A stretch of DNA of 64,000 nucleotides, taken from contig CANQQA010000009.1 of the NCBI GenBank assembly GCA_947625885.1, positions 1-64,000 on the forward strand, given 5' to 3'. The notes beneath the pieces are model-generated. The model was not told the DNA's origin, did no database searches, and saw nothing but the letters and a program-made list of their open reading frames with translations. A program made the translations under genes and the position numbers. This document shows, in pieces, positions 49,378 through 51,914 of this stretch (position 1 is its first letter; every line of letters starts with the position of its first letter). The stretch is from an uncultured Bacteroidales bacterium. GTDB lineage: Bacteria > Bacteroidota > Bacteroidia > Bacteroidales > UBA11471.

Positions 49378-49588
49378 ATTGTCATTGTTAGTAATATTTG
49401 TACGGTAAAGGTAACTCTTTTCTTTGAATCTGCGGCTCTCCGTCGGAAAATTTTTCCATATCTCTTTTTGCCGAAAATTTTTCCGTCGGAAACAATGTCG
49501 ATTCTCAAATTTCTTTTTTCAACAAAAAACAAAAACGCATAAAACTAAAATTTTCATATTATTTTATTGGTATATCCGAATATATTCA

Positions 49589-49596
49589 TATATTTG
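49589..49596 (+). promoter_or_regulatory. -7 promoter box of the structured RNA
   Basis: TATATTTG is an exact consensus -7 box. It ends 7 nt before the first paired base of the structured element that follows, with no ORF behind it, so an RNA gene start is likely. Confidence 0.6.
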
Positions 49597-49602
49597 TGCA
49601 TT

Positions 49603-49800
49603 GAAACGCTTCTCCGTGATTTTTTCACGCGACGTAACATTTCCCGAAAAAGGCGCGTGCCCCGACATTCTCATGCAGGGACACGCTAATCAAAAAGGAA
49701 ATGTTTGCGATTAGCTTCCGTATCGGGACTTCTCATATTCCGGCATTCGGAATAAGGGTCGCTCCACGGAAGTTATATAGAGACGTTACAAAGCGTTTTT
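49603..49800 (+). ncRNA. Structured noncoding RNA candidate (about 200 nt)
   Basis: No protein is encoded here, but the region folds as a closed unit by eye. Outer stem: AAACGCTT (49604-49611) with AAGCGTTT (49791-49798). Second stem: GTAAC (49634) with GTTAC (49785). Hairpins inside: CGTGA/TCACG (49615-49629); GCGTG.CCC/GGG.CACGC (49655-49686); TAATC/GATTA (49687-49713); CTTCCGT/ACGGAAG (49715-49772) capped by TATTCCG/CGGAATA (49736-49754). It starts right after a promoter box and ends in a T-run. It lacks RNase P and tmRNA signatures. 6S RNA or a Bacteroidales-specific RNA class are the main options; I cannot decide between them. Confidence 0.6.
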
Positions 49801-50064
49801 CTAACACTGTCGTACAAGTGAATTAATGCAGATTTTAATTCGCGGGTAAAGTTATATATTTTACATCACATTCCAAACTTTTTATTCATATTTTTCATTT
49901 TTTCTTTACAGGCTTTCCGATTGAAAATTTCCACTACACGATTCATAATCAGCAGATACACAATAGCGAATAAAGGAGCATGGGATTGTTTAGAGTTTTT
50001 TTTCTGCAAATTTTCGGCAGTCCGCCGAACAAACACATTCGACTTATTTATCTTCCAATAAGGT
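49801..50064. other. Gene-free AT-rich region
   Basis: Between the two RNA candidates I see no ORF with coding character, no tRNA and no clear promoter. Confidence 0.5.
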
Positions 50065-50131
50065 CAAAAAAAAATTGATTGCCTCCCGGCAACCAATCTT
50101 TATAAACCTTAAATCTAATACCATGAAAAAC
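50065..50131 (-). ncRNA. Short terminated transcript (sRNA candidate, about 65 nt)
   Basis: On the minus strand an exact TATCTTTG promoter box is followed by about 35 unpaired bases and then a 10-bp hairpin (ATTGGTTGCC, GGGA loop, GGCAATCAAT) and nine U residues, a strong intrinsic terminator. There is no room for a protein: an ATG inside is followed by only a few codons. This is a complete promoter-to-terminator unit in about 80 bases and fits a small regulatory RNA. I recall similar stretches in Bacteroides leaders, but cannot name a family. Confidence 0.55.
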
Positions 50132-50137
50132 ACGGTG

Positions 50138-50145
50138 CAAAGATA
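50138..50145 (-). promoter_or_regulatory. -7 promoter box of the sRNA candidate
   Basis: Reading on the minus strand gives TATCTTTG, an exact consensus -7 box. The terminator hairpin begins about 40 bases downstream. Confidence 0.6.
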
Positions 50146-50755: not shown

Positions 50756-51715
50756 TTACTTCGCAGATTCGTCGTCGTGATGCAGGAACGTTTCGACATT
50801 GTATCGGGGTCGGCGTTTTACCTCGACATAAATTTTTCCGATGTATTCGCCTATCGTGCCGATAGCTATCAGTATCACGCTGCCCAAAAACCAAAGCGAG
50901 AGCATGAGCGACGCCCACCCCTCGACCGTCTCGCCGCAGAAAAACGACACCAACGTATAGCCCGCCATGATGAGCGTAATGAAAAGTATGATAAATCCCA
51001 TCGAGGAGATAAGCCGAATGGGCTTTACCGAAAACGAGGTGATGCCATCAATGGCGAAATTGAGCATTTTGAAAAGGGGATATTTCGACTCGCCGGCGAA
51101 ACGCTCGTGCCGATCGTAAAAGACCGTTGCGGTTTTGTAGCCTATCGTGGGAATGATGCCGCGCAGGAACAGGTTACGCTCGGGATATTCGGCGAGTTGC
51201 CGCAGCGCCCGACGGCTCATCAGCCGGAAATCGGCATGATTATAGACCGTGCGCACGCCGAACAACGACATCAGCCGGTAAAATGCCTGCGCTGTCGTCC
51301 GCTTGAAGAAAGTATCGCTCTTGCGGGTGCGGCGCACGCCATAGACAATATCGGCACCGGCGGCGAAAGCATCGACCATATTTTCGATGACGGCGATATC
51401 GTCCTGCAAATCGGCGTCGATAGAGACGGCAGCATCGCACCGTTCCGTAACCGTTGCCAGTCCCGCCATAAGGGCGTTTTGATGTCCGCTGTTCTGCGCC
51501 AGACTCAGTCCGCAAATATGCGGGTCGGCAACATAAAGGCGTTCGATGATAGACCACGTGGCATCGCAACTTCCGTCGTTCACGAACAGAATGAAGCTGT
51601 CGGAAGCGATTTTCCGCTTCTCCACCAACGTGTCCAAGACGGCACGCAAGCGGCGGGCAGTTTCCTCCACTACTTTTTCTTCATTGTAACAGGGAACGAC
51701 AATCGACAGTTTCAT
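50756..51715 (-). CDS. Glycosyltransferase family 2, polyprenyl-phosphate hexose transferase type
   Basis: A 319-residue membrane-bound GT2 enzyme of the GtrB/DPM1-like group that transfers a sugar from a nucleotide donor to undecaprenyl phosphate. The ATG at 51715 (MKLSIVVPCYNEEKVV) follows a consensus promoter; the longer ORF is read-through. Visible are FILFVNDGSCDATW, LAQNSGHQNALMAGL, the DxD-type SIDADLQDD and VYGVRRTRKSDTFFKR. Two C-terminal membrane helices (about 230-255 and 265-290) follow. It could serve lipid A, O-antigen or surface-glycan modification; the sugar is unknown. It is monocistronic by context. Confidence 0.87.
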   Translation of the reverse strand: MKLSIVVPCYNEEKVVEETARRLRAVLDTLVEKRKIASDSFILFVNDGSCDATWSIIERLYVADPHICGLSLAQNSGHQNALMAGLATVTERCDAAVSIDADLQDDIAVIENMVDAFAAGADIVYGVRRTRKSDTFFKRTTAQAFYRLMSLFGVRTVYNHADFRLMSRRALRQLAEYPERNLFLRGIIPTIGYKTATVFYDRHERFAGESKYPLFKMLNFAIDGITSFSVKPIRLISSMGFIILFITLIMAGYTLVSFFCGETVEGWASLMLSLWFLGSVILIAIGTIGEYIGKIYVEVKRRPRYNVETFLHHDDESAK

Positions 51716-51740
51716 CGGCAAAACATATTTTACGGACGTA

Positions 51741-51748
51741 CAAAAGTA
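51741..51748 (-). promoter_or_regulatory. -7 promoter box of the GT2 gene
   Basis: Reading on the minus strand gives TACTTTTG, an exact TAnnTTTG match 26 bases above the ATG. Confidence 0.6.
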
Positions 51749-51914
51749 TAAAAAATTCATTCTCCTCGCGAAAGTTCTCTTTATAAATTTTATAACCGTT
51801 TCAAGAAGCACTACTGCCTAACCGTCATCGCGGCAAAAAGGCTGTTACAATTCCGTTACAATCGGGCGGGAAAGGTTTGATGAAAAATTTTCCGTCAATC
51901 GGCACAAAATAAAT

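Follow-up and report, generated by a model that had tools for sequence, protein, structure and literature searches.

A candidate structured RNA between two convergent promoter motifs beside FopS in three related Bacteroidales species

Upstream of a C69 dipeptidase gene (49377-47743, minus strand) in the genome of an uncultured Bacteroidales bacterium (G000), the segment 49589-49800 had been proposed, in a sequence-only reading, to encode a structured RNA of about 200 nt transcribed rightwards from its own promoter. Does this segment represent an RNA gene, how far does it extend, from which strand would it be read, and does it belong to a known RNA family? We addressed these questions in the window, the whole stretch of 64,000 nucleotides that was analysed, and in the genomes of related bacteria.

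The segment of about 200 nt at about 49602-49801 is predicted to fold into an outer stem which encloses several arms. On the plus strand the minimum free energy was -70.7 kcal/mol compared with a mean of -50.9 for shuffled sequences (z -4.75), and none of 200 shuffles equalled this value; the reverse strand gave a z of -4.57. In the three species with the element (G000 and its sisters G004 and G005) z ranged from -4.6 to -5.6 on the plus strand and from -4.9 to -6.8 on the minus strand. The fold is beyond chance and confirmed the claim of at least four internal hairpins. The absence of an open reading frame was also borne out: short ORFs within the element shift frame and length from species to species, and on neither strand are both kept across the three species.

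Comparison of the three species showed that the individual stems are kept to different degrees. The outer stem P1 (AAACGCTT/AAGCGTTT, 49604-49611 with 49791-49798), which closes the domain 49604-49798, has the proposed 8 bp in the window. Read on the minus strand, to which we assign it provisionally, it retains G.U pairing in G004 and is partly broken in G005; on the plus strand only 5 bp remain in G005 and a C/A mismatch occurs in G004. The second stem of 5 bp that had been proposed (GTAAC/GTTAC) is broken in both sister species (GGAAC/GTTGC). A small hairpin CGTGA/TCACG at 49615-49629, with no strand assigned, reads TCGCGAGA/TCTCGCGA in G004. The core arm (49637-49704, probably minus strand) consists of the stem ACATTTCC/GGAAATGT, a 10x10 internal loop and an inner 9-bp helix (49655-49663 with 49678-49686), and its tip is a 4-bp helix capped by a GAGA loop of the GNRA type (49669-49672). 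This arm is nearly invariant, in contrast to the variable second arm CTTCCGT/ACGGAAG (49715-49772, likewise placed on the minus strand) with its inner hairpin ATTCCG/CGGAAT (49737-49753). To the right of the domain, the hairpin GTGAATTAA/TTAATTCGC (49818-49843, no strand assigned) lies at the predicted minus-strand start and is 100% identical in the three species. The window also shows a pseudoknot, GCTAATC/GATTAGC, but this was rejected because the sister species do not keep it.

The profile of the three species placed the domain within a longer block at about 49541-49908, of no assigned strand, in which identity is high (about 49552-49903 by the profile itself), whereas the flanks show about 40-80% identity with many indels. 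The conserved unit is larger than first described: conservation continues for about 100 bp to the right of the proposed end at 49800, and a conserved promoter on the minus strand had been missed. Between G005 and G004 each 30-base window from 49637 to 49903 is 93-100% identical; in all three species the core arm and the stretch 49814-49843 show almost no change. Fourfold sites of the adjoining dipeptidase gene differ by 15-18% (15% for G005 and G004). Conservation of the block beyond these sites and beyond the flanks reflects selection against change rather than recent ancestry alone. For covariation, the check suggested in the sequence-only reading, one compensatory change, that in the small hairpin, is visible by eye, whereas the formal count over the tested arms found 0 pairs changed on both sides, a count that has almost no power for or against structure with three close sequences. 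The small number of close sequences and the lack of formal covariation leave some room for a fold that arose by chance in intergenic DNA under no constraint, but the z values in all three species and the conservation profile make this explanation very improbable.

Promoters of Bacteroides have the consensus TAnnTTTG at -7 and TTTG at -33 (PMC7366714). The consensus promoter box of the sequence-only reading proved to be an exact TAnnTTTG (TATATTTG, 49589-49596) with a TTG 19 nt upstream (49567-49569); the plus promoter TTG-N19-TATATTTG at 49567-49596 fits the Bacteroides consensus. Its boxes are kept in the three species while the spacer sequence varies, and the predicted start is near 49600-49603. 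A second promoter, TTTG-N19-TAACTTTA at 49877-49847 on the minus strand, also fits this consensus, is kept in boxes and spacing in the three species and has a predicted start near 49840-49843. These two conserved promoters lie at opposite ends of the block and face each other, and each end of the block carries a promoter of the TAnnTTTG type, as expected of an intergenic sRNA of Bacteroidales. In the intergenic region, 3 promoter pairs of the Bacteroides type were found compared with 0.21 expected from shuffles (P 0.002); the third, at 50140 on the minus strand, overlies the neighbouring FopS sRNA and is probably incidental. A scan for sigma-70 promoters, which are the wrong type for this phylum, gave no more sites than shuffled sequences. 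A simple terminator scan, not tuned to the phylum, detected no intrinsic terminator at either end of the element; its sole terminator-like site lies away from the T-run that had been taken as the end of the RNA.

The strand was assessed from the fact that a G.U pair on one strand corresponds to A/C on the other, while stems of Watson-Crick pairs are alike on both. On the minus strand the core arm contains GCGUGUCCC/GGGGCACGC (9 bp including one U.G) and then GCAU-GAGA-AUGU with its GNRA tetraloop, whereas on the plus strand C/A mismatches occur at the same places and the loop is UCUC; a continuous core helix with a GNRA loop forms on the minus strand only (-32.8 kcal/mol for the arm, compared with -23.4 on the plus strand). 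In the second arm four pairs have changed on one side and are still joined, as G.U, on the minus strand. The arm pair count also includes three pairs that break, in one species each, and leans toward the minus strand since it was made on the structure derived from that strand. The consensus fold reached -65.4 on the minus and -60.2 on the plus strand and kept the outer stem on the minus strand only. In each of the three species, however, the energy gap between the strands for the whole domain is at most 1.4 standard deviations of the spread among shuffles.

An RNA read rightwards would be driven from TATATTTG, start at the outer stem and end at the T-run near 49801, and the minus promoter would be secondary. 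It would explain the exact TAnnTTTG box conserved in three species, the predicted start that abuts the outer stem and the T-run that follows this stem, and two regions can pair better on the plus strand, namely a possible local hairpin near 49778-49805 and the hairpin 49818-49843 (9 pairs compared with 7 on the minus strand). On this strand, however, the invariant core contains C/A mismatches, as does the outer stem in two species; the plus consensus loses the outer stem, and the scan found no terminator. We regard it as a doubtful, though serious, alternative. The minus strand is somewhat favoured over the plus strand; the strand first proposed may well be wrong and the element read from the opposite one, as its invariant core pairs better there and the second conserved promoter points leftwards.

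The element was found in G000, G004 and G005 only, at one locus each, by DNA searches and with a covariance model, that is in three of the seven genomes of the genus; it was not found in the other four. Among 393 genomes of the order the covariance model matched just these three species, and among 396 of the phylum just the genome from which the window comes. Beyond the three species, the DNA search of the order returned just short, mostly AT-rich matches to promoter flanks. An exact 18-mer scan of genome contigs retrieved the sister species (three contigs) and three chance matches; in viral contigs it gave one chance match, and another pattern tried on them gave no match. Next to FopS in G006 there is a match of 14 nt, CTCATGCAGGGACA, which we attribute to chance. 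The three carrier species are probably of rabbit-gut origin, as suggested by the Lapin label of G004 and G005, both uncultured Bacteroidales MAGs.

In three of the genomes without the element, G003 (99% complete), G006 and G001, a gene for an 85-aa protein, FopS and the C69 dipeptidase gene follow in unchanged order, and the gap between the two protein genes is 314-432 bp compared with about 885 bp where the element is present. In the fourth, G002, the sequence upstream of the dipeptidase gene is different and has no match to the element; a long, repeated and unrelated intergenic sequence replaces the FopS/85-aa neighbourhood there. The dipeptidase is 97-98% identical among the carriers and 77-83% in the others, which fits a single gain in the ancestor of the three species. 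A family-2 glycosyltransferase gene (50756-51811, minus strand) occurs in the window and on one of the two G005 contigs, whereas G004, the second G005 contig, G003 and G006 lack it at the corresponding position; this is a second recent indel nearby.

The difference in gap length would also be expected if the palindromes acted as DNA, as a recombination site or as the relic of a small mobile element, and a perfect 12-bp inverted repeat does flank the element (49469-49480 and 50008-50019). This repeat is, however, not intact in G005 or G004, a blastn search against phages and plasmids gave no match, and each genome has one locus. The two copies in G005 lie on two contigs, inside a shared stretch of 7.2 kb with 99.7% identity, which suggests a strain variant or a large duplication and not a mobile copy. 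Since two conserved promoters would in addition be left unexplained, we consider a DNA-level element hardly probable.

The minus promoter points at the dipeptidase gene, whose start codon lies about 465 nt from the predicted minus start, and the element could be a cis-regulatory leader or a second promoter of this gene on a long transcript. But this gene carries its own promoter-like box (about 49405-49413), which congeners lacking the element have as well, and the 160 bp nearest to the fold on the dipeptidase side diverge strongly. Because this box is kept and the intervening sequence is poorly conserved, such a leader is improbable. Between the box and the element, 49437-49492 contains two tandem copies each of TCCGTCGGAAA and GAAAATTTTTCC, 27-43 bp apart.

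A search with 4227 Rfam families, at gathering thresholds and at E<=10, gave no match at the locus. The sole Rfam match in the window is the neighbouring FopS sRNA outside the element (50065-50133, minus strand; RF04319, 77.3 bits, E 1.3e-9), and this model does not match the element itself; matches of the miRNA type and to STnc410 at E<=10 are at chance level and all outside the locus. The models for tmRNA and RNase P RNA did not match the element and ARAGORN detected neither a tmRNA nor a tRNA in the window, in agreement with the earlier remark that the segment lacks the conserved cores of tmRNA and RNase P RNA. Bacteroidales-1, which had been named as a candidate, is excluded at Rfam sensitivity together with all other families. 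A 6S RNA, which had also been suggested, is unlikely. Neither RF00013 nor RF01685 matched at the locus (E<=10) or in the genome, the result for RF01685 being a weak negative as this model matched none of the control genomes. In the consensus fold a closed domain holds three arms, unlike the single long hairpin with a central bubble of 6S RNA, and the element has no housekeeping distribution, being absent from the congener that is 99% complete. RF00013 finds nothing in the whole G000 genome, though five control genomes match; the 6S RNA of this lineage is either divergent or located in the missing part of the assembly. A role as a sponge for FopS was rejected, since the duplex energy with the FopS 5' part was no better than that of shuffles, and so was a type-I toxin-antitoxin pair, as no small toxin ORF is conserved in the three species on either strand. 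Folding, selection and the lack of an Rfam match support the core of the original proposal, an RNA of about 200 nt outside known families with its own promoter. Both the original observation and its interpretation hold in part, and the feature is best described as a real, conserved candidate for a structured RNA, outside every known family and restricted to one small lineage.

Taken together, from the observed fold, conservation, promoter motifs and distribution we infer a stand-alone gene for a structured RNA next to FopS, acquired recently and under selection, which is probably read leftwards and subject to convergent antisense transcription; this is our preferred reading, held with slightly less than even confidence. 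The gene would be lineage-specific, at a single locus and under purifying selection, and its product a non-coding RNA with three hairpin arms enclosed by the outer stem, of which the GNRA-capped one is nearly invariant. The likeliest transcript would start near 49842 on the minus strand. The promoter at the opposite end may drive a complementary transcript across the region which limits or modulates this RNA, and the RNA would probably act in trans, either through base pairing or by binding a protein, by analogy with other intergenic RNAs of Bacteroidales. A bolder version, which we think rather unlikely, is that both strands of the 200-bp element are transcribed from the opposed promoters into two complementary non-coding RNAs, each highly structured, which regulate one another and form a new RNA class, acquired once beside FopS. 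If expressed, the element would be a structured RNA gene near its origin, with its neighbours unchanged in congeners that lack it, and would permit a direct study of the emergence of new regulatory RNAs in gut Bacteroidales. The locus also illustrates that an RNA of this kind may be placed on the wrong strand if promoter motifs and stems are read on one strand alone.

Among known systems, the element resembles 6S RNA (RF00013; 6S-Flavo, RF01685) in its length of about 200 nt, its structure and its own promoter. With the FopS/GibS sRNAs of Bacteroides (RF04319; PMC11697453) it shares the intergenic position, the lack of coding potential and a promoter of the TAnnTTTG type. FopS differs in that it is about 70 nt long, combines a single-stranded 5' part with a terminator hairpin and occurs in several copies, with 3-5 matches per genome in the seven genomes of the genus and 12-15 copies, more than here, reported for Bacteroides (PMC11697453); the element is about 200 nt long, multibranched and confined to one locus. 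Opposed promoters and predicted overlapping complementary transcripts recall convergent cis-antisense RNA pairs, among them those resembling type-I toxin-antitoxin systems that are reported in B. thetaiotaomicron (PMC7366714). In contrast to these pairs, the element has no conserved small ORF on either strand, and both of its strands fold strongly.
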